In this document: piece by piece, positions 14,762 through 37,971 of the stretch
Layout: the number at the start of each line of letters is the position of its first letter
How positions within the stretch are numbered: the first letter of the stretch is position 1
Origin: Clostridia bacterium
GTDB lineage: Bacteria; Bacillota; Clostridia; UBA1212; UBA1255
Assembly: GCA_017613535.1 (NCBI GenBank)
Contig: JAGADO010000106.1
Coordinates: 1 to 46,908, forward strand
Length of the DNA: 46,908 nt
Reading direction: 5' to 3'
The notes under the pieces: generated by a model
What the model was told of the DNA's origin: nothing
Seen by the model: the letters and a program-made list of their open reading frames with translations, nothing else
Databases searched by the model: none
Position numbers and translations under genes: made by a program

Positions 14762-17700
14762 ATGAACGAAGAGTATTCAGTAAGTGAAAACAATCAGCAA
14801 TCGCCGGAGTTTCAGACTTATTCCGAATTAAATGCCGAGAGCAATGTCGGAGAGTTCGAGCAATATGCGACTGAATACGGGTATGTCCCGAAGGAATTCC
14901 AGACGTACGAAAATACGACGCCGCCCGGAAAACTGACGCGGCACAGCTCGATCCTGAGGGACAATAAAAACAGGCTCGGAAGGCTGCTTGCGATGCTTGC
15001 CGCTATCATCGCGCCCGTGCTGCTTGTGATATTGCTCGCATCGAACTCTATATTTGTTGACGTGCGCGGATATACCGCCGAACCTGATCTCCTTGAGGTC
15101 AAGCTCAGCTTGTATTCTTCGTCTTCCGACACGGAATTCAACGCTGTACTTACGGACCGCGAAGGAAACGTGGTAAGAGAGCAGTATATTGACAGAAGCG
15201 TGCCGCTCCTCCTGTTTACCGGCCTTGAGCCCGGAAGTCTTTATTATCTCGAAGTTTATGCCGACGGTGAATCGCGCCTGAGGCTTAATTATATCCTGCC
15301 TGAATACGAAAAGGAAGGTCCGGAGACCGGCCCGACGGGAGGACCCGGATATGAGACCGAACAGCCCGGCGAACCCACGAATGCGCCTGACGTAACTCCT
15401 TCCGGCTCAACTGCGACACCTGAGCAGCCTACGGACGAACCTACGAACGAACCTACGGACGAGCCGACCGCGGCGCCGGAACCTGTTATCATGCTCTCGG
15501 GAGAGGAATCCAAATTTGAATCATTCACACTCACGCTGACCGCCGAAAATATTGACACGGCTGACCTCAGGGCAAAGATCAACGATCAGGACGCGGCTCT
15601 TACGCCTCAGGCAGACGGAAGCACCGTGACATTGTCCGCGGATGGACTCGTGCCTGATACCGAGTACCCGTTCGTGATCACGGATAAGGACGGAAAAGAG
15701 CTTTATTCCGGCAGCATAAAGACTGCGAAACGCACTCCCGCTCAGGTCACGGTCCAGCTCTTCACGAGCACGCTGACGTGGACGGATATAGAATTTGTTG
15801 CCGTGAACCCTGACGGGAATAAGATCACCGCAAAATTTGACGGGCAGGACTTCAACTACACCAAGAACGGTAATATGATGTCGTTCGTGTTCAACGGGCT
15901 CGAGGTGGGATCGGCCCACAGGATCGATTTCTACGACTGGAACGGCTCGCTTATATTGTCGTACCCGTTCACGACGAGAGCGAGGGAAGGCGCGAGCGTA
16001 TCTGTAACTTCGCAGACGATTGGTATTGACAGCGCATCGATCACATTCTCTATCACGAACCCGGATAACAACGCGCTCTCTGTCAGATACGACGGCACAG
16101 TTATCGAATCGGAACTGACGGCGTCAACATTCGATTTCAGCAGAAGCGGCCTCGCATACGGCGTGTCGCATCTTATCGAATTCATTGATTGGGACGGAAC
16201 GGTAATTTATACGCACTCGTTTGCACCGAGGGCAAGGCGCGCCGCGAGCGTGTCTGTCGCTTCTCAGACGATCGGCATCGACAGCGCATCGATCAGGTTC
16301 ACGATCAATAACCCGGACAGCAACGAGCTCTCCGTCAGGTACGACGGTACCGTCATCAAATCCGCGCTAACGGCTTCATCGTACGATTTCAGCAGAAGCG
16401 GCCTCGTTTCAGGCGTTACGCATAAGATCGAATTCCTCGACTGGGACGGCAGCGTAATATTTACGCATACGTTTGCGGCGAGGTCAAGGAATCCTGCTAC
16501 CGTTTCATTCACCAATGTTTCGGCGGGATACAACAGCATTTCCGTCAGACTCAGCGTCAGTAACCCTGACGGGAACGAGCTCGAGCTCAGGGTCAACGGA
16601 AATCGCGTGAGTGCCGATCTTTCGTCTGCTTCTCCGTCGGCAAGCATCACCGGCCTTGACCCGAGGACGAGCTACACGATCACGGTTCAGGACGTATCGT
16701 GCGGCTCGACCGTTGCGACAACGACTGCGACTACTGTCACGTCGGTGAACTGGTCCCAGGACGGTTCGGGCAATACGACGTTTACTCTGACTGACGCGTT
16801 CGCGAGCCTGTACCCGAATGCGGCGATCACCGTTACGGACAGCCTCGGCTATAAAGTAAAAACAACTTCTCCGAGCTCGAAGAAATTCTACGTCGCGGCG
16901 AGCGATTCCGTCTACAGCGACAGCTACACCGTGAAGGTCACTTCCGGAGGCAGCACGGTCGACACCGTAACTGCTTCGCTCTCGGGCAAGGCAAGGCCTG
17001 TCATCGGCATGACATATGAAACTTACGGGCCTGCGACTCTGGAAGAAGCAAAGAGGAATGGGTACAGCTGGATCTCATATCCCGGATACAAATATCAGCT
17101 CAAATCGGGATATGTCGAGGATGTATATAGAGACGACTCTGAAACTCCTGAAGTTATACCCGATAACACGCACTGGACCGCACTTATCGTTAAAAACAGT
17201 TCCGGCGAGGTCTTCAGGATCGCTGTTTCAGGAATCGGGATAGAGGAAGAATGTGTAAGACTGACCGGCACCGAATGGATCTCGTTCTGGGCGTTAGGCG
17301 GAAATTACGACGATGCGCCTGCCGGAACATATACCGCTGCTCTATATACGGCTGACGGATACACAGTGGACGAGATGCAGGATATGTTCTACGAGGCAAC
17401 AGAAGCAGAGGATTACGAAAAAGCCATGCCTCTCATCAACGCATTTATCTCATCCGGCAGGCGCGTGTCGAAAAACGTCAGTTACAATGTGCCGGATGAT
17501 GACGGTTACAAAGGGGACGGCTATACCACAATAAACAGCGCGCAGATAGTTCGCGACAGATTGCTTGTAAACGCAACTGTCAGCTATTACGGAGACACAG
17601 GGCTGGAAGGTTTCCTCGTGTTCGTATCCGCATCCGATCCGACAGTGATGCTGAGCGATCCTATATCTCTCGGGACAGGCAGCACATACGGATACTCGAT

Positions 17701-22480: not shown

Positions 22481-24865
22481 ATGAAGAAATTGTTACTTAT
22501 TGTAATCGCTGCAGCACTTGCAATATCGCTCTTTGCGATAGCCACTTCTGCTGAAGAATCTTCGATCGAGCACACGAACATTGACTTCGTATGCATCGTT
22601 GACTCAAACGGCGCGATCATTGAAAACGCAGGCAAGGGCGCCGATCTCGGTAACCTCAAGGTTCAGACAGATGCCGGCGCTGCGTACCTCTGGCTTATCG
22701 GCTGGCATTACCCCACGAAAGAACCCGTTGACTTCGGTTATCAGATCGATGACGGCGAGATCGTATACGGCGGAATGAACTGCACCTACAACGAAGGCAC
22801 CTCCGGTGTTATTGCATCCTGGAGCGAAGAATGGGCACTCCATGCCGACTGGGTCAGAACGTTCAACGGTTACGTACCCATGCCGGCCGGCGCACATGAA
22901 GTCAAGCTTTACGTGAAGTACACCGACGGAAATACCAAGGTCATTTATAAGACCAAGTATTCCACCGATGACAGCAACATCGCTCTTGGCAAACCCGCGT
23001 TCGTTGACCTCTACAATGTCGGTTCATACGGTTTACCTTACTGGGATCCCTCGTTCCTGACCGACGGCACGAAATGGCTCTTCAACGCAGACCTTGCCAA
23101 CCCCGTTCCGCTGGGCTGGTACGGCGCATATGCTGCAAATGCTTCCGCTAAATTCTATATCGACCTTCAGGGCGTATATGACCTTTCAAGTGTGAATATT
23201 CACGCTATGGGTTTTGATAACGCCTCTATTCCGAACGCATTCACGGTATACGGATCGACAGACGGCGTTAACTGGGAGACCATCGGTAAGATCGAAGGCG
23301 TGACCGGAGCAGTTGACTCCGCAGACCCGATCGTATTCACCACGAACAAGCGTGCCCGCTTCATTATGGTCAATGTTGACACGTTCAACACTACCGCATC
23401 CGGCGCGGTTATTGGTCTGGGCGAGATCGAGGCTTACGGTACGTTCGTTGAAGCTTCTTCCTTCAAGGCTCCGTACACGATCCACTATTCGACATATGAA
23501 GGCACCGTGAGCGGCGATACCGGAGGACTGTGCGGCTGGACCGGATTCACTACCGGCACGCTTACATATTCGTTCGAATTCAATACCGACGTTTCGTTCT
23601 ACAAAGTCGGATTCCCGGCATTCTGGGCTTATCCCGGAACTCCTCTTCAGATCGACTTCACCAAGGACGGAGAAGTCGTTCTCACCCGCAACCATACGAC
23701 TCTTGGAGACGGCGGATTTGCGCTTCCTCTCGGCGAGACTCTTCCTGCCGGACAATACGTCTGCAAGATAACTATTCTGGACAATACTCTCGGATCTGCT
23801 GAGGCAGGATATCCCGAAGGAGCATATCAGGACTACATCGTTGTAGGTTATGCTGACAACGGCCTGCTTGGTACCGATTATGTTGTCGCCGATCGCGGCC
23901 AGCCCGCTATCGACATCTACTCGACAGAGGAGAACAGCCAGGGCTTCATCAAGCGTGCATACAAGCAGCATGTGAATATCGACGTTGTCCGTCTCGACGG
24001 TGCCGATCAGGAAAATGCAGATAACTCTCACATCATTGTTGACGAAAACAGCAAAGAGATCCTTGTCCACGGCTGGCTCGCTGCTAACTTCCCGGTCGAA
24101 AAGTACGGATATAAGATCGACGGCGGCGAAGCTGTTTACGATGACAGCTTTATGGTGACCGATTACGGTACGGCCGATAATCCAAATATGGACTACTTCG
24201 CTATTATGGAAGCAGCTAAGAATAAGTTCGGACCTGCCGGAAACGGATACCGTGCGAATGTTAAGGTCCCCGTGACCGCAGGCAAGCACACTGTTGAGAT
24301 CGTTGCTTACGTTAACGGTGCTGACAGACACATCCGTACGTTCTCTTACGGAACCGAAGCCGCTACAGCGTTCGTGGAATATTACTCCCGCGACCAGATC
24401 ACTCTTGACGGCGTTGACAAAGCTAAATTCGGCGGAAACGACGAAGTGACCAACATCGATGAGAACCTCTTCGATTCGATCGGCAAAAAGCTGCGCATCT
24501 GGGGCTGGTACGGAAACAATAAGGGCCTCGATAAGTACGGCGTTAAGGTCGACGGCGGCGAGATCGTTTATTTCGACAGATACGAAGCTGAAGATATCGT
24601 TAACCACATCAAGACGAACCTGATCAAGGACGACGACGTTTACGCATCCCGCTTCGAGATCTTCGTTGACATCACCGGCGGCGAGCATACCGTAGAGGTC
24701 TTTGCGATCGCTAACGGCGAAGAGCGCCTGCTCTGGACGGTCAACTACAATGCGATCGGCGATTCCATCCCCGAGACCGGCGATGCATCTGTCGTACTGT
24801 TCGCAGTGATCGCAGTGCTGGCAATGGGTGCCGCAGTTGTTTTCGTGAAGAAAAAGTCTTTCTGA
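22481..24865 (+). CDS. Sortase-type surface protein with F5/8C (discoidin) domain and three GY-IDGGE repeats
   Basis: 794 aa, ATG at 22481 behind a near-perfect AAGGAGG site, suggesting high expression. A signal peptide spans about 1-24. Three related domains contain a W-x-W/GW strand followed by Y-G(Y/V)-K-(I/V)-DGGE-x-VY (about 26-160, 495-630 and 638-755). Between the first two lies an F5/8 type C/CBM32-like domain (about 166-318; LTDG..W, then FTVYGSTDGVNWETIG) and a beta-rich region. The end is IPETG (about 762-766), a hydrophobic helix and KKKSF, which has the layout of a sortase sorting signal. I infer a wall-attached glycan-binding protein with no visible catalytic site. A strong terminator follows. 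Confidence 0.82.
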   Translation: MKKLLLIVIAAALAISLFAIATSAEESSIEHTNIDFVCIVDSNGAIIENAGKGADLGNLKVQTDAGAAYLWLIGWHYPTKEPVDFGYQIDDGEIVYGGMNCTYNEGTSGVIASWSEEWALHADWVRTFNGYVPMPAGAHEVKLYVKYTDGNTKVIYKTKYSTDDSNIALGKPAFVDLYNVGSYGLPYWDPSFLTDGTKWLFNADLANPVPLGWYGAYAANASAKFYIDLQGVYDLSSVNIHAMGFDNASIPNAFTVYGSTDGVNWETIGKIEGVTGAVDSADPIVFTTNKRARFIMVNVDTFNTTASGAVIGLGEIEAYGTFVEASSFKAPYTIHYSTYEGTVSGDTGGLCGWTGFTTGTLTYSFEFNTDVSFYKVGFPAFWAYPGTPLQIDFTKDGEVVLTRNHTTLGDGGFALPLGETLPAGQYVCKITILDNTLGSAEAGYPEGAYQDYIVVGYADNGLLGTDYVVADRGQPAIDIYSTEENSQGFIKRAYKQHVNIDVVRLDGADQENADNSHIIVDENSKEILVHGWLAANFPVEKYGYKIDGGEAVYDDSFMVTDYGTADNPNMDYFAIMEAAKNKFGPAGNGYRANVKVPVTAGKHTVEIVAYVNGADRHIRTFSYGTEAATAFVEYYSRDQITLDGVDKAKFGGNDEVTNIDENLFDSIGKKLRIWGWYGNNKGLDKYGVKVDGGEIVYFDRYEAEDIVNHIKTNLIKDDDVYASRFEIFVDITGGEHTVEVFAIANGEERLLWTVNYNAIGDSIPETGDASVVLFAVIAVLAMGAAVVFVKKKSF

Positions 24866-29017: not shown

Positions 29018-30085
29018 ATGCCGTTATTTGAAGTAACTGAAAACGATAAGAGAATTTACGAGACCGAGCTGAAGGACTTTCTGCCCGCGAAGATCATTGA
29101 CGTCCATACGCACGTGTGGCTCGATTCATTGACCGAACCTGCACCGGAAGACGAAGATCCGCGCGCCGTAAAATGGCCCTCGCTCGTGGCGAAGGATAAT
29201 AGCATTGAGGATCTTCAGGAGACTTACCGCCTGCTTTTCCCGGGGAAGGACGTTTCTGCGCTCATGTTCACGAGCAGAGTCCACAGCATTGAGAGCGGCG
29301 TTAAGAACAATGAATACGTGTCCGATGCTTCGCGCAGGAGCGGCTGGCCCGCATTGTATTACAGCCATCCTCTTCAGAGCGCGGACGAGGTGGAGCGAAA
29401 GATCCGGGAAGGCGGGTTCGTGGGAATCAAATCGTACCTCACTCTTTCTCCCTCTTATCTGCCTGAAGCAGAGATACGCATATTCGATTTCTTCCCGAAA
29501 GAGCAGCTCAGACGCATGAATAGCATGGGAGCGATCGTGATGCTCCACATACCGCGAAACGGACGCCTGAAGGACCCAGTTAACCTCGAGCAGATACTCG
29601 AGACCAAGAGAGAATTCCCGGACATCAGGCTGATCGTGGCGCACGTGGGAAGAGCGTACACGTTCGGGGATGTGGGCAATGCTTTTACCGATTATCTGTG
29701 CAAAGCTCCCGACCTTATGTATGATTTCTCGGCCAACTGCTGCGAGTACGCTATCACCGAGGTCATTCGCCACGCCGGTCCAAAGCACGTCATGTACGGG
29801 ACCGATATGCCTATCCTCAGGATGCGCACGCACAGGATAGAGGAAAACGGCACATATATAAACCTGATTCCGCCCGGACTTTACGGAGACCCGTCGCAGG
29901 ACAGGCACCTGAGAGAAGTAAGCGCCGAAGAAGCAGAAAAGATAACGTTTTTCGTGTACGAGGAACTCCTGGCGTTCAAACGCGCATGCACGAAACTCGG
30001 CGTAACGAAAGAAGACGTTTCCGACATGATGTACGGGAACGCGGCCAGGCTGATCGAAGGGGCAAGGAAATCAATTTACGGATGA
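29018..30085 (+). CDS. Amidohydrolase-family TIM-barrel hydrolase (COG2159-like)
   Basis: 355 aa, ATG at 29018 after a CGGAGC site. It shows the COG2159/ACMSD-like amidohydrolase pattern: a first metal motif DVHTHVW (near 31), then MLHIPR, LIVAHVGRAY and YGTDMPIL carrying the later His and Asp ligands. Members hydrolyse or decarboxylate small carboxylates and lactones using a bound divalent metal in the cytoplasm. Here it is the first gene of a compact cluster with sugar isomerases and a sugar kinase, so lactone or ester hydrolysis of a sugar derivative is a reasonable inference. The next gene starts 40 bp downstream with its own ribosome site. Confidence 0.8.
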   Translation: MPLFEVTENDKRIYETELKDFLPAKIIDVHTHVWLDSLTEPAPEDEDPRAVKWPSLVAKDNSIEDLQETYRLLFPGKDVSALMFTSRVHSIESGVKNNEYVSDASRRSGWPALYYSHPLQSADEVERKIREGGFVGIKSYLTLSPSYLPEAEIRIFDFFPKEQLRRMNSMGAIVMLHIPRNGRLKDPVNLEQILETKREFPDIRLIVAHVGRAYTFGDVGNAFTDYLCKAPDLMYDFSANCCEYAITEVIRHAGPKHVMYGTDMPILRMRTHRIEENGTYINLIPPGLYGDPSQDRHLREVSAEEAEKITFFVYEELLAFKRACTKLGVTKEDVSDMMYGNAARLIEGARKSIYG

Positions 30086-30125
30086 TCAGATAAAACTTAG
30101 GAAAACTTAAGCGGAGGACAATATA

Positions 30126-31520
30126 GTGAAAAAGACGAAGATAGGCTACCTGCCATTTTACATCAAGTTATACGACGATGCGTACCCGGATATCCGCGCT
30201 CCTTACGAGGCGTATATGCACAAACTGATCGGAATGATCGAAGAACGCGGCTTCGAGGTAGTTTACCCCGGAGAAGTATGCAGGGTAAAAGAAGAATTTG
30301 ACCGCGCCGCGGCAGTATTCAACGCAGATCCGGAGATCGCTGCAGTCGTCACGCAGCATCTGGCATATTCGCCTTCGCTCGAGTCGATACAGGCGCTCCT
30401 GTCGCTGCGCGCACCTATAATCGTGTTTGACACTACGCCCGATTACGAACTGCTGAAATACGCCGAGACCGAGGATCGCATAATGCCTAACCACGGAATT
30501 CACGGCGTGCAGGATATGTGCAACATGCTGCGCAGAAACGGCAGGCATTATGAAATATGCGCCGGACACGCGCTCCACAGCGACGTTGTCAGCGAACTTT
30601 GCAGCCTTTGCCGCGCTGCCGGTACCGCTCTGAACCTCAAAAATTCGCGCATCGGAATGGTGGGCGGAGAGTTCGAAGGAATGGGAGATTTCAGATTGCC
30701 CGATGACGTGCTTAAACGCGAATTGGGCGTCGAAACGGTGCGCATGACCGAGGCGGACGGCCGCAAATTCACGCATGCTGTGACGGATGACGAGATAAAG
30801 GCGGAGATCGACTCGGATGCGGTCAATTTCGACGTGCGTGCCGTCAATGATTCCGCGTATGCTCTTGCTACGAAGGCCGGACTCGCGGTGCGCAAGTGGA
30901 TGGAGGCAAATGAGCTCAATGGCGTTACCGTTAACTTCCTCCATACCGATACGGCCGGCATCCCCAAGATGCCTTTCGTGGAGTGCTGTAAAGTGCTTGA
31001 ACGATGCCAGGGTTACGCGGGAGAGGGAGATAATCTCACGGCTGCGCTCGTTGGAGCACTCATACGCACGTACCCTGACACCACGTTCACTGAAATGTTC
31101 TGCCCTGATTGGGCTGAAGGACTTATCCTGCTCAGCCACATGGGAGAGATGAACCCGAAGCTTTCTATGTGGAAGCCCGTGCTGCGCGATAAAAGATTCA
31201 CTTACAATTCCTGCGGAAACACCGTTTCTCTGAGCGGCTGCTTCAAAGCGGGTAAAGTCGTGCTCGTGAACCTTGCCCCGGCGGAGAAAGGCTTTACGCT
31301 TATCGTTACCGCGGCGGAGATCACCGGAGACGGTTATCCTACCGGCGCGTACGAGGCCGAAGTGCAGGGCTGGTTCAAGCCGTCGCTGCCTCTGCCGGAA
31401 TTTCTTCAGACGTATTCGAAGTATGGCGGAACACATCATTCCGCGATGGTATACGGGGGAGACGTGAATGAGATCGCCGCGTTTGGCCGGTTTATGGGCT
31501 TCGAGACGGTGATCATCTGA
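30126..31520 (+). CDS. L-fucose/L-arabinose isomerase-like protein
   Basis: 464 aa from a GTG start (30126) with a GCGGAGG site upstream. It belongs by pattern to the COG2407-type fucose/arabinose isomerase-like proteins: KIGYLPFYIKLYDDAYPDI, the VVTQHLAYSP strand, GMVGGEFEGMGDF, VNFLHTDTAGIPKMPFVECCK, a metal-site-like EGDNLTAALVGAL and TFTEMFCPDW, and a C-terminal TYSKYGGTHHSAMVYG. Such enzymes interconvert aldoses and ketoses with Mn. Length fits. In this cluster it most likely makes the ketose for the FGGY kinase. The sugar cannot be named from sequence. Confidence 0.85.
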   Translation: MKKTKIGYLPFYIKLYDDAYPDIRAPYEAYMHKLIGMIEERGFEVVYPGEVCRVKEEFDRAAAVFNADPEIAAVVTQHLAYSPSLESIQALLSLRAPIIVFDTTPDYELLKYAETEDRIMPNHGIHGVQDMCNMLRRNGRHYEICAGHALHSDVVSELCSLCRAAGTALNLKNSRIGMVGGEFEGMGDFRLPDDVLKRELGVETVRMTEADGRKFTHAVTDDEIKAEIDSDAVNFDVRAVNDSAYALATKAGLAVRKWMEANELNGVTVNFLHTDTAGIPKMPFVECCKVLERCQGYAGEGDNLTAALVGALIRTYPDTTFTEMFCPDWAEGLILLSHMGEMNPKLSMWKPVLRDKRFTYNSCGNTVSLSGCFKAGKVVLVNLAPAEKGFTLIVTAAEITGDGYPTGAYEAEVQGWFKPSLPLPEFLQTYSKYGGTHHSAMVYGGDVNEIAAFGRFMGFETVII

Positions 31521-31536
31521 TAAGGAGAATCATAGA

Positions 31537-32244
31537 ATGAAACCAGTAATACGCACGCCGTATTTTGAAATCGGTACGAAAAATTACGTATACGGCGATA
31601 AAGTGCTCGAATATGCGCTGGCAGCGGACAAAGCCGCGGAGAAATACGATATTGACGTCCTGTTCATCACGCCCGCGGTGGAGATCCGCAGAGTGGCAGA
31701 AAATACGAAGCACCTAATCGTGCTTGCCCCGTACATGGACACGCTCAGACCGGGCCGCGGAATGGCGGATATATTGCCCGAAGCGCTGAAAGCAGCAGGA
31801 GCGAAAGGCGTTGTCATAAATCATTGCGAAAAGCCGATGAGCCTGCCTCAGATGAAGGCAACGATCGACCGTGCGCGCGAACTTGACTTTATCGTTTTCG
31901 CGTGTGCAGATACGCTTGCGGAGGCAAAGGCGATCGCCCAGCTTCATCCCGACATCATCAACCCCGAACCGTCCGCGATCATCGGAGGCGGCAACGGCGT
32001 TTCGCCCATGGATTACGTCATGGATTCGATCCGCGAGATCAAGTCCGTGTACCCGGATATCATGGTCGAGCAGGCCGCGGGGATAACGAACGGGCAGCAG
32101 GTTTACGATTTCATTATGGCGGGCAGCGAGGCGGCAGGCGCTGCATCCGGCATCATGAACGCGAAAGATCCGATAGCGATGATAGACGAGATGATCGCCG
32201 CAACGCGCCGCGCGGCAGACGACCTTAAAAAACGGGAGAAATGA
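31537..32244 (+). CDS. Triose-phosphate-isomerase-like protein (tetrose/pentose-phosphate isomerase candidate)
   Basis: 235 aa, ATG at 31537 after AAGGAG. It has the TIM layout: an N-terminal Lys in EIGTKNYVYG, the catalytic His in GVVINHCEKP, the catalytic Glu in INPEPSAIIGGGNG and the phosphate-binding late loops (EQAAGITNGQQ, then GSEAAGAASGI). This resembles archaeal-type TIMs and the L-erythrulose-1-phosphate isomerases (LerI/EryH) of tetritol pathways more than glycolytic TpiA. It lies inside a sugar cluster with its own kinase, so an alternative phosphosugar substrate is likely. The YjbQ gene begins 1 bp after its stop. Confidence 0.82.
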   Translation: MKPVIRTPYFEIGTKNYVYGDKVLEYALAADKAAEKYDIDVLFITPAVEIRRVAENTKHLIVLAPYMDTLRPGRGMADILPEALKAAGAKGVVINHCEKPMSLPQMKATIDRARELDFIVFACADTLAEAKAIAQLHPDIINPEPSAIIGGGNGVSPMDYVMDSIREIKSVYPDIMVEQAAGITNGQQVYDFIMAGSEAAGAASGIMNAKDPIAMIDEMIAATRRAADDLKKREK

Positions 32245-32245
32245 T

Positions 32246-32740
32246 ATGGTAAAAAAGTATTCATTCAAACTTGAGTCGAACCACCGCGCCGTGAGCTTCC
32301 ACGACGTTACGGACCGGGTGAAGGAGTATATAAAAGAGTCCGGCATGACCGACGGGATCGCGGTAGTTTATTCGCACCACACGACGTGTTCGGTGATAAC
32401 GCAGGAATGCGCGTTCGATAAGTCCATGACGGGGCTCGAGACGCTCCAGCAGGATCTCGTTAATGTTTTTGAAAAGTGGATCCCGACCTGCCGCTATGAG
32501 GGCATGTACCTTCACCCCGGACCGGAAGCGCTGAAGTTCGCGGAAGAGCACGGCGAGGACAATTTCGGCTGCCATAATACGGATGCTCATCTGCGCTCAT
32601 CGATCATCGGACGGAGCGTCACGATCGTTGTCGACAACGGCATTGCGGACCTCGGTGAGTTCGGCCGTATCCATTTTATTGACTGGGACCAGACACGCGG
32701 CCGCACGCGCACGGTCCAGGTGATGCTGATCGGTGAATGA
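32246..32740 (+). CDS. YjbQ/UPF0047-family protein, copy 1
   Basis: 164 aa, ATG at 32246 only 1 bp after the previous stop, and 4-bp overlap with the kinase start, so it is tightly coupled. Family hallmarks are VVYSHHTTCSVITQE (near 42), a HPGPEAL block, NTDAHLRSSIIGRSVTIVV (near 112) and IHFIDWDQTRGRTR. YjbQ proteins form trimers; one E. coli member has weak thiamine-phosphate synthase activity, but the true role is unsettled. No thiamine genes are nearby. Lying between a TIM-like isomerase and an FGGY kinase suggests a sugar or sugar-phosphate role. Confidence 0.9.
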   Translation: MVKKYSFKLESNHRAVSFHDVTDRVKEYIKESGMTDGIAVVYSHHTTCSVITQECAFDKSMTGLETLQQDLVNVFEKWIPTCRYEGMYLHPGPEALKFAEEHGEDNFGCHNTDAHLRSSIIGRSVTIVVDNGIADLGEFGRIHFIDWDQTRGRTRTVQVMLIGE

Positions 32741-34122
32741 CAATGAAGTATCTTATCGGTCTTGACATTGGCACTTCCGCGGTGAAAGGCGCGCTGATGG
32801 ATGCGGATACACGCATCGTATGCACGTCTGCCGCTCCGTTTACATATTTTGAAGAAGGGACGGCAAAGCTGCTGGATCCGGAGCATTTCGTCAATACCTG
32901 CAAGAGCGTGATACGCGAACTGGCATCGAGGGCTGCGGCTGATGCCGAAGCGTGCGGTGAATGCGGCAGAGCGGAGATAATTGCCATCTGCTCGTGCTGC
33001 GCCAGCGGCTGCCCGCTGTTCCTTGACGCGAATCTGGCGCCGCTCACGCCTATAATCGGCTGGCAGACGTCCGTCGAGTGGGACGTGCTAAATAAAGTGT
33101 ACACTAAGGAGGAGCAGGATGCGTTCTACCGCATGGTCGGCTGGGATTTCTTCGACGGAATGCCTGCCGCGAACCTCGCCTGGTTCAAGGTAAACCGCCC
33201 CGAAATTCTCGAAAAAACGCACTTTTTATGCATGAGCGCCGAATATCTGAATTACAAGCTTACCGGCCTGTGGGGCCTCACGCATTCGATGGGCACTCCG
33301 TCGTACCTGATGGATCAGGAAAAGGGCATTTACAACAGCGCTATGCTCGAAAAATTCGGACTTCGCGAAGAAATGCTGCCGCCTATTTACGATAAAGGCA
33401 CCGTTTTGGGTGCCGTGAAGCCGGAGATCGCGCAGGAACTCGGGCTCGGAAAAGATACCGGGATCGTGCTCGGAACGTTTGACCACCCGTCCGGAGCGCT
33501 CGGAGCAGGCGTGATCGACGAGGGCGAAATGTTATTGTCCTGCGGCACGTCGTGGGTCGAATTCTTCCCTGTAGCAGACCGCGAATTCGCGCTCAGCACC
33601 GGAGGGCTCGTTGACCGCTTCATGCTGAAAGGCGCGCCGTACTGCGTGATGAAATCGCTCGAATCGGTCAGTGATAAGATCAACGGTCTTCGCGAGAAAC
33701 TGCTGGGTAAGATCACATTCAGCGAAAACGACGCGCTGATCGAGGCTTCCGAACCGGGCGCACACGGGCTCAGGTTTGACTTCACGGATGGCGATGCTGA
33801 GCGTGCGAAAGGTTTTTCCAGAGCGGATATCGCAAGGGCGATCGTTGAAAGCGCCGCGATAATGCTCAGGGACAATCTCCGCCAGCTCGAGCTGTGCGGT
33901 CTTCGCGCGGACAATCTCACCGCGATCGGCGGCATTACCAATTCCGCTACGTGCGTGAATGTTATATCTGAAATTCTCGGGCGCAAAATAAGCGTCGTCA
34001 ACGGCCAGGCTGCGGGTGCCGTGGGTTCGTGTCTGCTTGCCGGTATCGGCACAGGCGTGTTCGCTTCGGAGCGCGAAGCCGTAAACATAATGAAGGCGCG
34101 TCTCAACGCCCCGGAGGAGTGA
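32737..34122 (+). CDS. FGGY-family sugar kinase
   Basis: 461 aa, ATG at 32737 overlapping the yjbQ stop. It has the ASKHA/FGGY architecture: N-terminal ATPase motif LIGLDIGTSAVKGALMD, WDFFDGMPAANLAWFK, catalytic-region GTFDHPSGALGAG (where xylulokinases have a GGDNAAGA-type motif), SCGTSWVEF, and the C-terminal adenosine motif GGITNSATCVNVISEILGRKISVV with GAVGSCLLAG. Family members phosphorylate ketoses, polyols or related sugars. The unusual FDHPS around the putative catalytic Asp argues against a plain xylulokinase. It probably phosphorylates the product of the isomerase. Confidence 0.9.
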   Translation: MTMKYLIGLDIGTSAVKGALMDADTRIVCTSAAPFTYFEEGTAKLLDPEHFVNTCKSVIRELASRAAADAEACGECGRAEIIAICSCCASGCPLFLDANLAPLTPIIGWQTSVEWDVLNKVYTKEEQDAFYRMVGWDFFDGMPAANLAWFKVNRPEILEKTHFLCMSAEYLNYKLTGLWGLTHSMGTPSYLMDQEKGIYNSAMLEKFGLREEMLPPIYDKGTVLGAVKPEIAQELGLGKDTGIVLGTFDHPSGALGAGVIDEGEMLLSCGTSWVEFFPVADREFALSTGGLVDRFMLKGAPYCVMKSLESVSDKINGLREKLLGKITFSENDALIEASEPGAHGLRFDFTDGDAERAKGFSRADIARAIVESAAIMLRDNLRQLELCGLRADNLTAIGGITNSATCVNVISEILGRKISVVNGQAAGAVGSCLLAGIGTGVFASEREAVNIMKARLNAPEE

Positions 34123-34127
34123 GTGTT

Positions 34128-34724
34128 TTGAAGAAAGAATCGCTTGAACAGGCGATGAAAGTGTACGAGATCGAAAGCGAATGCATACGCGAGATGCAGT
34201 CGTACTTCGATGAAGAGGCGTTCGGAAAAGCCGCTGAACTGCTCAAAAACGCACAGCGTATCGGCGTATCCGGCTGCGGCCACTCGGGAATATTGTGCCA
34301 GCATTTCGCGCACCTGATGTGCTGCATCGAACAGCCCGCCAAATTCATATTGCCCTCGGAGGCAATACACGGCGGTACCGGTTTCCTGCAGCCCGGTGAC
34401 GTGTGCGTACTGGCATCGCGCGGCGGAAAAACAGCGGAACTTTTGCCGATCCTCGACATCTGCCGTAAAAAAAGCGTGAAGGTGATCACGATCACTGAAA
34501 ATCTGGACTCGCCGCTCGCCAAAGGTGCGGACGTAGTGCTCAAACAGCACGTGAACAGGGAGACGGACAAGTATAATTGCCAGGGGACAACGTCGAGTAC
34601 GGCGCTGGCGGTGATCTTTCACGTGCTGCAGACGATCCTCATCGAGGAGACGGATTTTCAGAACGAACGGTTCGCGCTGATCCATCCCGGAGGAGCGGTA
34701 GGATCAAGATTAAATGGGAAATGA
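34128..34724 (+). CDS. SIS-domain phosphosugar isomerase (KpsF/GutQ-like)
   Basis: 198 aa. The TTG at 34128 is chosen because GGAGGAG lies about 8 bp upstream; the longer frame would run into the kinase gene. It is a single SIS domain: GVSGCGHSGILCQHFAHLM, VLASRGGKTAELLPIL with the Ser/Thr phosphate-binding pattern, QGTTSSTALAVIF, and a KdsD-type ending IHPGGAVGSRL. It lacks the CBS pair of full KdsD/GutQ (about 320 aa). Arabinose-5-phosphate-type aldose-ketose isomerisation is the known activity of the group. With the TIM-like protein it gives the cluster two phosphosugar isomerases. Confidence 0.87.
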   Translation: MKKESLEQAMKVYEIESECIREMQSYFDEEAFGKAAELLKNAQRIGVSGCGHSGILCQHFAHLMCCIEQPAKFILPSEAIHGGTGFLQPGDVCVLASRGGKTAELLPILDICRKKSVKVITITENLDSPLAKGADVVLKQHVNRETDKYNCQGTTSSTALAVIFHVLQTILIEETDFQNERFALIHPGGAVGSRLNGK

Positions 34725-34741
34725 TTAATGGCAAATTGCAA

Positions 34742-34761
34742 ATGGGCTAACCGAGTGACAG
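34742..34761 (+). repeat. 20-bp dispersed inverted repeat, left copy
   Basis: ATGGGCTAACCGAGTGACAG here matches the reverse complement of 37991-38010 at 19 of 20 positions. The pair flanks the second yjbQ, the phosphatase and the transporter. Confidence 0.75.
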
Positions 34762-34769
34762 AATTAGAA

Positions 34770-34825
34770 TGGCAAATGGGAAGTTGCCACTTGCCATTTG
34801 CCACTTGCAACTTGCCACTTGCAAC
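34770..34825. repeat. Hairpin plus 14-bp tandem repeat upstream of second yjbQ
   Basis: TGGCAAATGG (34770-34779) is perfectly complementary to CCATTTGCCA (34794-34803). Overlapping it are two exact tandem copies of TTGCCACTTGCAAC (34798-34811 and 34812-34825) and a 12/14 copy at 34784-34797. The array ends 21 bp before the start of the next gene and just upstream of its ribosome site. Confidence 0.85.
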
Positions 34826-34846
34826 TTAAATATACGGAGGTTTATT

Positions 34847-35467
34847 ATGGAATTTAAAGTGTATCAGAAAGAACTTGAACTGCAGTCGCGCGGCTGGATC
34901 CCCACGTTCCACGACGTGTCGAAAGAAGTGCTCGAGATCGTAAAAGCATCAGGCGTGAAAAACGGAACCGTTGCCATCGCATCGCACCACACCACGTGCT
35001 CGGTAATGATCCAGGAATGCTCACATGATATTGACAGCTTCGACATCGAATATCTGCAGCACGACCTGCTTGACATAATGCGGAAACTCATTCCTGATTT
35101 CGCGGAAGAGCATCAGTACCGCCACCCAGGACCGATCCACCTGCAGTTCGGCCGCTACGTAAACGAGCCAGGCGACTTCACCAGTATGAACACCGACGGC
35201 CACCTGCGCTCTGTATTTTTCGGACGCAGCGAGGTCATGACGATCAAGGACGGCGAGCTTGACGGAGGCGAATTCGCGCACATCTATTTCGTTGACTGGG
35301 ATCACGTGCGCGCGCGCCGCAGACAGCTCAACATCACCGTCATGGGCACGACCGAGGACGTTGAAGACCGCAAATGGAACGGCGGAGAAGTTATCAATAC
35401 GCTTCGCAAATACACCGACGAAGAGAAGGCGTTCGACGAACACTATACGCTCCAGCAGAAACGCTGA
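34847..35467 (+). CDS. YjbQ/UPF0047-family protein, copy 2 (divergent, extended C-terminus)
   Basis: 206 aa. ATG 34847 is placed by the CGGAGG site; an upstream in-frame ATG lies inside the repeat array. The YjbQ core is clear: GWIPTFHDVSKEVLEIV, IASHHTTCSVMIQE, HPGPIHL, NTDGHLRSVFFGRSEVMTI and IYFVDWDHVRARRRQ. It diverges strongly from copy 1, has about 35 extra C-terminal residues (DRKWNGGEVINTLRKYTDEE) and lies after a repeat-filled gap rather than being coupled. The two copies may form hetero-oligomers or act on different intermediates. No catalytic assignment is possible. Confidence 0.9.
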   Translation: MEFKVYQKELELQSRGWIPTFHDVSKEVLEIVKASGVKNGTVAIASHHTTCSVMIQECSHDIDSFDIEYLQHDLLDIMRKLIPDFAEEHQYRHPGPIHLQFGRYVNEPGDFTSMNTDGHLRSVFFGRSEVMTIKDGELDGGEFAHIYFVDWDHVRARRRQLNITVMGTTEDVEDRKWNGGEVINTLRKYTDEEKAFDEHYTLQQKR

Positions 35468-35555
35468 AATATTGACGATGCGGCCGGAAACGGCGCCCGG
35501 GACAGCGTGCTGATAAGCGTTCAGGCGCGTCAACAGCGAAAAAGGGGGAATTGAT

Positions 35556-36272
35556 TTGAGACTCGTTTTTATCCGACACGGAGACCCCGATTACGAACAC
35601 GATTCATTGACACCGCGCGGAAGAAAAGAGGCGGAAGCGCTCGTGCCGAGAGTCGCGGGACTTAACGCAGATGCGTTCTATTGCTCACCACTGGGCAGAG
35701 CGAAATTGACCGCGGAACCGTCAATGAAATTCCTGGGCAGGGAGGCGGAGATCGTTCCCTGGCTGGAAGAATTCAACGCGCCTGTGCTCGATCCGTACAG
35801 CGGCAATATCCGCTGCGCCTGGAACCTTCCTCCAAAGTACTGGACGGAAGATGCGATGCTCTACAGCAAGGACGAATGGACGCACGCGGACATAATGCGC
35901 ACCGGGCGGGTTGAAAGCAGGTTTAAAGAGATCTGCGCCTCGATGGACGAGGTCATTAAACAGTACGGGTACGTGCGCAGACCTGGCAGCGAAAACATTT
36001 ACGACGTCATCTCTCCGAACACGAAAACGATCGTGTTTTTCTGCCATATGGGCGTGTCGCTCGTGCTGATGTCGCACCTTTTTGGCATCTCAGGCGCATG
36101 CATGTGGCAGAACTTCTGCCCGCTGCCGTCGTCCGTATCGATGCTCAGGACCGAAGAATGCGATAAAGGAATTGCCGTGTTCCGAACGGCGTTTTTAGGA
36201 GACGTTTCGCACCTGTACGCGGCCGGAATAGAACCGTCTTTCTCAGGCTTTGCCAATGAAATATACCCATAA
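35556..36272 (+). CDS. Histidine phosphatase family protein
   Basis: 238 aa from TTG 35556, 7 bp after an AAGGGGGAA site. The RHG signature is at the very start (LVFIRHGDPDYEHDSLTPRG), followed by FYCSPLGRAKLTAEP and, near residue 168, FFCHMGVSL with the second catalytic His. Members of this branch dephosphorylate small metabolites, often sugar phosphates, in the cytoplasm. An unusual feature is the long region between the two motifs (WNLPPKYWTEDAM and so on). As part of the sugar cluster it may remove a dead-end phosphate or act on a pathway intermediate. Confidence 0.88.
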   Translation: MRLVFIRHGDPDYEHDSLTPRGRKEAEALVPRVAGLNADAFYCSPLGRAKLTAEPSMKFLGREAEIVPWLEEFNAPVLDPYSGNIRCAWNLPPKYWTEDAMLYSKDEWTHADIMRTGRVESRFKEICASMDEVIKQYGYVRRPGSENIYDVISPNTKTIVFFCHMGVSLVLMSHLFGISGACMWQNFCPLPSSVSMLRTEECDKGIAVFRTAFLGDVSHLYAAGIEPSFSGFANEIYP

Positions 36273-36300
36273 AGCGATTTGACGAAATAAGGAGCAGCTT

Positions 36301-37971
36301 ATGAAACTTAATTACAAAAGGACGATACTGGTAGGTTTCGCGTTCTTCCTGATCTGTATGTTCTGGCAGGCGTACGACAATACCATCCCGCTTATCCTGA
36401 CAAACAAGTTCGGTATGTCACAGACGTGGTCGGGCGTGATCATGGCGCTGGACAATATATTGGCCCTGTTCCTGCTGCCGCTTTTCGGCGCGCTCAGCGA
36501 TAAGGTCAGGACGAAAGCCGGCAGGCGCACACCGTTCATAATGATCGGAACGATATTGGCCGCGGTGCTGTTCATCGGATTGTCCGTAGCGGACTACCGC
36601 CAACTCACGAAGGTCGATGCGGTTACGCCCGATAACGGCAATTATTCGAACTCTCTCAGTGTGATCTACGATGCCAATCCGAACGTGGCCGTGCCGGAGG
36701 AGAAGAAGGACGGAATGACGTTCTTCGAAGCTATCGGCGACGTGTTCGCGGTGAAGGAGAAGAAGCCACTTAATGAGCTTTTCCCCGTGAAGGAAGATTT
36801 CACGTCGATCGAGATGTTCAAAAAGGACGAGAACGGTGAATACACTAAAGATACGACGGACGATTATACGAATTACGTCGTACCTGCGCGCAATGCGTAT
36901 GCATGGAAAATGACCGCTGCCTCGCCTGTAACGCTCGTGTTCTTCGTCGTGCTGCTGCTCGGCGTGCTCGTGTCAATGGGCATCTTCAGATCGCCTGCTG
37001 TCGCTCTCATGCCGGACGTCACTCCCAAGCCGCTTCGTTCGAAGGGCAATGCGATCATTAACCTGATGGGTTCATTCGGCGGTATTCTCGTGCTGGTGCT
37101 CGGCATGATTTTCAAAACGGGTGCTCCGGTCAACGCCATGATGAATTACATTCCGTTCTTCTGCACTGTAGCGGGGATAATGATAATCGCGCTCATCGTG
37201 TTCAGATTGACCGTGAAGGAGCCTAAATGGGCGCTCGAAGCGGCAGAAATCGACGCGAAACTTGACGCCGAAGCAGAAGAAAAAGAGAAAACCAAAGCAG
37301 CGGGGAAAACGGCGGAAATTGCCGAAAACGCAGGAACTGCCGCTGCTCCTTCGGGGAAACTGCCTCCCGCCGTACGCAGATCGCTCATATTCATCCTATT
37401 GTCCGTCGCGCTCTGGTACATGGGCTACAACGCCGTTACGAGCAAGTACTCGGTTTACGCCAGCAGCGTACTTAATATGGACTACAATATGACGCTGATC
37501 ATTGCCCAGGCTGCCGCGATAATATCGTACATTCCGATCGGTATCATTTCCACCAAACTCGGCCGCAAAAAGACGATCATCGCAGGCGTCATTATGCTCG
37601 GCGTGGCGTTCGGAGCCGCATCGTTCATGCGCGCAGGCAGCTCGCTATTGCTGATGAATATATTGTTTGCTCTCGCCGGTATCGCGTGGGCAACGATCAA
37701 CGTTAACTCTTTCCCGATGGTCGTGGAGCTCGCTCACAGCAGCAATGTGGGCAAGTACACCGGTTACTACTACACCGCGAGCATGGCCGCGCAGGTCGTG
37801 ACGCCTATACTGAGCGGTATATTCCTTGACATCCGCTTCACAACGCTGTTCCCGTACGCTACCGTGTTCGTGGCGCTGGCGCTGGTGACAATGCTGTTCG
37901 TGAAGCACGGCGACGCGAAGCCGCAGGCTCCGAAGGACAAGATGGAGTACCTGGCAGGAGCGGATGACTAA
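36301..37971 (+). CDS. MFS sugar transporter, GPH/SLC45-like
   Basis: 556 aa, ATG at 36301 after AAGGAGC. There are about 12 predicted membrane segments. The N-terminal part reads like GPH/SLC45 sugar cotransporters: WQAYDNTIPLILTNKFGMS, MALDNILALFLLPLFGALSDK and TKAGRRTPFI with the MFS motif A. Two insertions lengthen it: a ~100-residue acidic region after the third segment (about 100-200) and a Lys/Ala/Glu-rich central loop (about 315-355). As the last gene of the cluster it is the obvious candidate for importing the sugar or glycoside. Substrate unknown. Confidence 0.85.
   Translation: MKLNYKRTILVGFAFFLICMFWQAYDNTIPLILTNKFGMSQTWSGVIMALDNILALFLLPLFGALSDKVRTKAGRRTPFIMIGTILAAVLFIGLSVADYRQLTKVDAVTPDNGNYSNSLSVIYDANPNVAVPEEKKDGMTFFEAIGDVFAVKEKKPLNELFPVKEDFTSIEMFKKDENGEYTKDTTDDYTNYVVPARNAYAWKMTAASPVTLVFFVVLLLGVLVSMGIFRSPAVALMPDVTPKPLRSKGNAIINLMGSFGGILVLVLGMIFKTGAPVNAMMNYIPFFCTVAGIMIIALIVFRLTVKEPKWALEAAEIDAKLDAEAEEKEKTKAAGKTAEIAENAGTAAAPSGKLPPAVRRSLIFILLSVALWYMGYNAVTSKYSVYASSVLNMDYNMTLIIAQAAAIISYIPIGIISTKLGRKKTIIAGVIMLGVAFGAASFMRAGSSLLLMNILFALAGIAWATINVNSFPMVVELAHSSNVGKYTGYYYTASMAAQVVTPILSGIFLDIRFTTLFPYATVFVALALVTMLFVKHGDAKPQAPKDKMEYLAGADD

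Follow-up and report, generated by a model that had tools for sequence, protein, structure and literature searches.

In the erythritol (Ery) operon of Brucella and Rhizobium, made up of the kinase EryA, EryB, EryC, the triose-phosphate isomerase (TIM)-like EryH and the RpiB-like EryI, an FGGY-family kinase is combined with an isomerase of the TIM family and then with a second isomerase (PMC11508834, PMC10190533), and erythrose-4-phosphate enters central metabolism in Brucella via Tal and Fba (PMC11508834). We analysed a cluster of nine genes that shares these three enzyme types, located at 29018-37971 on the + strand of a 46,908-nucleotide stretch of DNA (the window) from a Clostridia bacterium (contig JAGADO010000106.1). 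The cluster departs from the Ery operon in having a TIM of the archaeal PRK04302 type and, in the position of the RpiB-like EryI, YjbQ and SIS-domain proteins; it further includes an AraA-like aldose isomerase and an amidohydrolase. Searches with Pfam and NCBIfam models revealed no homologue of the EryB dehydrogenase or the EryC racemase among the nine genes, and no RpiB-type EryI in the cluster. As is generally known, the tetritol pathways of Mycolicibacterium smegmatis (LerI/EryI type) likewise use a TIM-like isomerisation of a tetrulose phosphate toward erythrose-4-phosphate; they rely on their own kinase family, dehydrogenases and RpiB, none of which is found in the window cluster. The likeness to EryH and LerI, already drawn in a preliminary description of this DNA, is useful as a functional analogy. 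We found no description of this gene set in the open-access literature, and it represents real, widespread and apparently undescribed sugar-breakdown genes of gut and rumen bacteria. Sugar-catabolic operons using phosphosugar isomerases are known; what is plausibly new is an enzyme family inside such an operon. The cluster very probably serves sugar-phosphate catabolism, and we give a probability of roughly 40% to the more specific reading that it is a catabolic operon for a rare sugar with an isomerase relay leading into central metabolism.

The set, whose recurrence the preliminary description had left open, is not specific to this genome. Within the order that the window comes from, orthologues of the AraA-like isomerase (40-79% identical) occur in 12 other genomes, with the same partners in their neighbourhoods. 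A scan of genome contigs with an alignment of the second YjbQ protein (YjbQ2) returned 268 relatives; the locus counts given here refer to the best 80 of these 268, taken with 10 kb flanks, many of them cut by contig ends. These 80 loci derive from rumen and gut Clostridia, Victivallales/Lentisphaeria and Anaerobacterium chartisolvens, and they contain a SIS gene in 69 cases, a TIM in 57, an FGGY kinase in 56, the amidohydrolase in 22, the AraA-like isomerase in 21 and an FSA-type aldolase in 18. The window gene order is retained in a second species (loci L034/L049) and dozens of genomes share the core, so the cluster is not a chance assembly. Of 291 genomes from the class, 37 contain a YjbQ2 relative, 38 the cluster-type TIM and 39 SIS; all 37 genomes with YjbQ2 also carry the cluster-type TIM and 34 carry all three genes (Fisher p 4e-46 for YjbQ2 with TIM, a value that ignores the relatedness of the genomes). 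Nine genes had been put forward as the unit, yet the window-type histidine phosphatase and MFS transporter genes are found in just 2 of the 80 loci. The conserved unit is thus TIM, long YjbQ and SIS, and we regard this core as almost certainly a functional module.

The core exists in two versions, distinguished by their TIM: TIM-A proteins are 81-97% identical to the window copy, and TIM-B/C proteins about 41-56%. Both versions include SIS and YjbQ2. The first YjbQ protein (YjbQ1) is present in all 24 TIM-A loci, the AraA-like isomerase in 20 and the amidohydrolase in 19, and none of these three occurs in the 33 TIM-B/C loci, where we found instead a FucI-related isomerase (15/33), a 496-residue protein (14/33) and NagA-like and NagB-like genes (7/33). 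The 496-residue protein (L125:7412-8902 and 13 further loci) accompanies TIM-B/C cores only and has no Pfam match; a reading of it as a ceramidase, judged by eye, was set aside. The aldolase of related loci was likewise considered as a transaldolase, which we rejected since it is of the FSA type and keeps the FSA glutamine and tyrosine. The FucI-like isomerase and TAL_FSA aldolase of the TIM-B variant recall the sulfoquinovose transaldolase pathway (SftI, SftT), in which SftI is a related isomerase; however, the SftI model gives just 37-45 bits (cut-off 700), and a kinase and TIM, YjbQ and SIS are added. Two further protein families were observed in these neighbourhoods. A 324-residue protein adjoins the NagA-like gene and the core at L089:5194-6168 and in L075, L084, L087, L094 and L116; no Pfam model matches it and its sole similarity is a distant one to NagB (25 bits), and with the NagA-like gene it could possibly form an amino-sugar entry into the same route. 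A family of about 600 residues occurs near the clusters (L035:14435-16243, L038:9108-10943, L044:16039-17832, L043/L078), without Pfam or NCBIfam match, with a motif like WGEPxFGYYRSDDxWVIRKHAxxLxxAGVDF and beside Gfo/Idh, GH38 and CE2-type genes; it is possibly an unclassified glycosidase.

The preliminary description left the two YjbQ proteins without a role, and they turn out to be the most constrained part of the set. YjbQ1 (32246-32740) and YjbQ2 (34847-35467; 206 residues with a C-terminal extension) both exceed the Pfam cut-off for UPF0047 (90.8 and 86.4 bits against 27), and against the NCBIfam equivalog TIGR00149 (cut-off 67.75) they score 82.3 and 65.5 bits. The long-form YjbQs of sugar operons fall on one side of a branch supported 100/100 that separates them from the generic YjbQ of the same class (UPF0047, annotated as secondary thiamine-phosphate synthase enzyme). 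They differ from these by an obligate sugar-operon context and by a longer domain (about 420-429 nt against 339-348 nt when matched to the same Pfam model), the extra length being an insertion with a PG motif ahead of N115. The fold is shared, as are H48, T49, T50, E57, D73, N115, H119, G126, D152, R155 and R157, and with these residues retained in both clades an active site has likely been preserved. The predicted structure of YjbQ2, of modest confidence (pLDDT 70), has the YjbQ fold (1vmj, 1vph). YjbQ2 is 83-100% identical across relatives, and 83-92% identical between families in which the figure for the housekeeping TIM is 56-60%. At 88-98% protein identity its fourfold-degenerate sites are just 25-57% identical, which led us to reject recent transfer or contamination as the main cause of the high identity; with these sites near saturation and the protein conserved, strong purifying selection is indicated. 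By these sequence comparisons YjbQ2 appears to be the most conserved core gene, under stronger constraint than the housekeeping TIM that these genomes also encode. For YjbQ itself, a weak thiamin-phosphate-synthase side activity was reportedly described by Morett in 2008. From gene partnership and conserved residues we slightly favour an isomerase or epimerase function.

The TIM-A protein of the window (31537-32244) matches PF00121 and exceeds the cut-off of the NCBIfam model PRK04302 (153.3 bits against 132), and its catalytic K15, H96 and E144 are invariant across 41 sequences. The housekeeping TIM of this genome is a different gene (321 bits, at G000:C168), which excludes the cluster TIM as the sole TIM of the cell and indicates that it is specialised, although K/H/E are retained. 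The same genome also holds transketolase N-domains, and no TAL_FSA gene was found in it (82% complete). The SIS protein (34119-34724), a predicted sugar-phosphate isomerase, consists of a single domain, as in KdsD/GutQ and HxlB, and has no CBS domain; its closest solved relatives are the single-domain phosphosugar isomerases 3fxa (a Listeria SIS protein), 5uqi and E. coli KdsD. It remains under the cut-offs of the curated models for both KdsD/KpsF (110 bits against 203.7) and HxlB (47 bits against 160), and the alignment places a histidine and a lysine at KdsD positions K59 and E111, which we take to be catalytic residues of KdsD.

Pfam and NCBIfam models back the families that the preliminary description had assigned to all nine genes, including those that would bring the sugar to this core. 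The aldose-ketose isomerase (30126-31520, about 464 residues) carries the three AraA domains PF02610, PF24856 and PF11762, and its E300, E323, H338 and H437/H438, invariant in 24 sequences, align to the metal and catalytic residues of E. coli AraA. This supports its assignment as a predicted aldose-ketose isomerase. It scores only 84.9 bits against the curated AraA model (cut-off 622) and is found without AraB or AraD partners. The FGGY kinase (32737-34122) has XylB as its best curated match, at 166 bits against a cut-off of 380.25, and lies far beneath the cut-off of every named kinase model in NCBIfam; the cluster does not encode an ordinary xylulokinase pathway. The amidohydrolase, first gene of the cluster (29018-30085), is a metal-dependent hydrolase of PF04909 type by Pfam (71.9 bits). 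A single-sequence search of the PDB gave no match, and profile and fold searches gave weak PF04909 neighbours only, the closest to its predicted fold (pLDDT 88) being decarboxylases and hydrolases at a TM score of only ~0.5. We therefore describe it as a predicted enzyme of the PF04909 hydrolase/decarboxylase fold, for which the lactone opening suggested in the preliminary description would be one possible reaction.

Among more distant relatives the core is joined to varying heads and tails. Heads comprise the AraA-like isomerase with amidohydrolase and FGGY kinase (the window type), a FucI-like isomerase with an FGGY kinase, phosphotransferase-system (PTS) importers in Enterococcus and Lacticaseibacillus, and, in Shinella, an SDR dehydrogenase and a ketose 3-epimerase-like protein with an FGGY kinase beside TIM and YjbQ. 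Tails include FSA, a class II aldolase, a transketolase (once with a transaldolase) or HxlB. The preliminary description stated that no aldolase, transketolase or dehydrogenase is present: this holds for the nine genes of the window cluster, but not for homologous clusters, which carry FSA, class II aldolase, transketolase, SDR and HxlB. The Ery product enters metabolism via transaldolase and aldolase, and the same enzyme types accompany TIM and YjbQ in these relatives. A class II aldolase with TIM and YjbQ was seen in Enterococcus raffinosus, an E. faecium plasmid, a Lacticaseibacillus plasmid and related Clostridia; several of these operons also encode a PTS importer, which belongs to the galactitol family in the case that was tested, and at one locus a transaldolase and a transketolase lie nearby. 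PTS genes with YjbQ, an RPE-like protein and HxlB occur on hospital E. faecium plasmids and on another Lacticaseibacillus plasmid, the latter also with a SIS gene; the HxlB proteins are above the curated cut-off, and RPE/allulose-6-phosphate-epimerase-like proteins adjoin YjbQ. Relatives of the long YjbQ clade are also present in L151, L153 and about 150 plasmid records of Enterococcus, for the most part from E. faecium. Those E. faecium records that we inspected have YjbQ in a PTS operon, usually PTS-YjbQ-RPE-HxlB, flanked by insertion sequences. In Shinella, the GolD/DthD model picks up the SDR, and models of ketose 3-epimerases pick up the epimerase; in gene logic this operon matches the erythritol operon of Brucella, YjbQ taking the EryI position beside TIM.

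Altogether, these gene associations are consistent with the following route. The MFS transporter would import a rare sugar, which may be the tetrose, pentose or branched sugar put forward in the preliminary description, the AraA-like isomerase would convert it to a ketose and the FGGY kinase would then phosphorylate this ketose, giving a ketose phosphate whose carbonyl is misplaced for glycolysis or the pentose phosphate pathway. TIM, the long YjbQs and SIS would act in turn as sugar-phosphate isomerases, shifting the carbonyl one carbon at a time, in the direction leading away from the phosphate-bearing end, as EryH and then EryI do in Brucella, until a central metabolite such as D-erythrose-4-phosphate, fructose-6-phosphate or a close relative is reached and consumed by enzymes of the aldolase, transaldolase or transketolase type. 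A tetrulose-1-phosphate would need two shifts to erythrose-4-phosphate and a hexulose-1-phosphate three to fructose-6-phosphate, and a 6-deoxy sugar would yield an FSA substrate. In favour of such a relay, the heads vary while the core is constant, and the tails are consumers of erythrose-4-phosphate- or fructose-6-phosphate-type products; HxlB itself yields fructose-6-phosphate. The isomerase role of YjbQ, the order of the steps and the product are what we infer from these partnerships, and by analogy with EryH and EryI the TIM-YjbQ-SIS relay in this precise form is a tentative proposal. Several observations weigh against it. The four candidate isomerases of the window (TIM, two YjbQs and SIS) exceed the need of a tetrose route, some YjbQ operons lack TIM (YjbQ, RPE and HxlB in E. 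faecium), and the NagA/NagB-like variants suggest an unexplained amino-sugar link. The SIS reaction is uncertain because two KdsD catalytic positions differ, and no activity of the YjbQ family is known beyond the weak thiamin-phosphate-synthase side activity.

Other routes could be built from the same parts. TIM and YjbQ form the invariant pair and a tetrulose phosphate requires exactly two shifts, so TIM could convert L-erythrulose-1-phosphate supplied by the head to D-erythrulose-4-phosphate, as EryH and LerI do, and the long YjbQ, in place of RpiB (EryI), could convert this to D-erythrose-4-phosphate, for which the aldolase, transaldolase and transketolase tails are known consumers. The Shinella SDR and epimerase matches fit as well, but pentoses and hexoses are the usual substrates of AraA- and FucI-like isomerases, a second YjbQ and SIS would have no task in it, and we know of no abundance of free tetroses in the rumen; we consider a strict tetrose route unlikely. 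The HxlB operons, where HxlB and RPE/allulose-6-phosphate-epimerase-like proteins adjoin YjbQ, would be the clearest case for an epimerisation instead, in which a ketohexose-6-phosphate of the tagatose, sorbose or psicose series, perhaps supplied by NagA/NagB-like heads, would become fructose-6-phosphate via transient 3-keto or 4-keto forms. Such a route does not itself require a TIM-like enzyme, and the window SIS is closer to KpsF/KdsD than to HxlB, making it decidedly unlikely here. Still less is to be expected of a 6-deoxyhexose route, which we judge quite improbable: a FucI/AraA-like isomerase and the FGGY kinase would give a 6-deoxyketohexose-1-phosphate, three shifts would give 1-deoxyfructose-6-phosphate, and FSA would cleave this to hydroxyacetone and glyceraldehyde-3-phosphate. 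The FSA-type aldolase in 18 of the 80 loci, the FucI-related TIM-B isomerase and the three candidate shifts provided by TIM, SIS and YjbQ all suit this chemistry, which is however wholly conjectural; we noticed neither a fucosidase nor a rhamnosidase in the neighbourhoods inspected, and the incomplete window genome yielded no TAL_FSA gene.

YjbQ might also stand outside the pathway proper, as a metal-dependent repair, mutarotation or binding protein guarding TIM/SIS intermediates, or as a supplier of thiamin phosphate for transketolase. The side activity is the only one known for the family, and generic YjbQ occurs without sugar genes; but the long form is linked to a TIM-like gene in 37 of 37 genomes, forms its own clade with a lineage-specific insertion and is present in two copies in TIM-A operons, and we noticed no genes of thiamin synthesis among the clusters inspected, so that we hold this to be improbable. 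Finally, the AraA domains and the XylB match of the kinase might point to an ordinary L-arabinose/xylulose-type pathway with divergent paralogues. Given the scores of both enzymes, far below the AraA and XylB cut-offs, the absence of AraD and the TIM, SIS and two YjbQs that would be left over, this is scarcely credible.

In the window itself, the + strand carries all nine open reading frames where they were first listed, with two starts revised. SIS begins at GTG 34119 (or TTG 34128) and not at 34029, and YjbQ2 at ATG 34847, the open reading frame 5' of this ATG being an intergenic repeat that mimics an N-terminal extension. The genes had been described as largely overlapping or within 40 bp, which is true of six junctions (overlapping by 4 bp or within 40 bp) but not of SIS-YjbQ2 (122 bp) and YjbQ2-phosphatase (88 bp). 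The SIS-YjbQ2 gap contains a TTGCCAC/TTGCAAC array (34784-34827, no strand assigned) that lies outside the system and is an interspersed repeat family: its 24-mer matches 53 places in its own genome with at most 3 mismatches, and none in a backward control. The histidine phosphatase (35556-36272, Pfam His_Phos_1) and the MFS/GPH-like sugar transporter (36301-37971, MFS_1) that close the cluster are accessory. Elsewhere in the window, positions 15991-16489 hold a tandem duplication (two copies of a 252-bp unit, 78% matches), probably inside a large repeat protein, and upstream of the cluster 22481-24865 encodes a 794-residue secreted protein with a C-terminal sorting-signal-like tail (ETGDASVVLFAVIAVLAMGAAVVFVKKKSF).

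YjbQ/UPF0047 proteins occur across bacteria and archaea and have at least 8 solved structures, still with no accepted function. The clade described here, tied to sugar-phosphate isomerase genes in 37 of 37 genomes, offers a specific and cheap assay for UPF0047 function and points to a common, undescribed sugar route in rumen and gut anaerobes. A bolder version, which we find doubtful, is that the long YjbQ clade is a new sugar-phosphate isomerase family that, with TIM and SIS as an interchangeable cassette, shifts the carbonyl of a ketose-1-phosphate through the entire chain. If true, rare sugars would enter central metabolism without stereospecific dehydrogenases, via a cassette common to Bacillota, Lentisphaerota and Alphaproteobacteria. 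With related operons on plasmids, the same chemistry may explain a mobile sugar-use trait of clinical Enterococcus strains.

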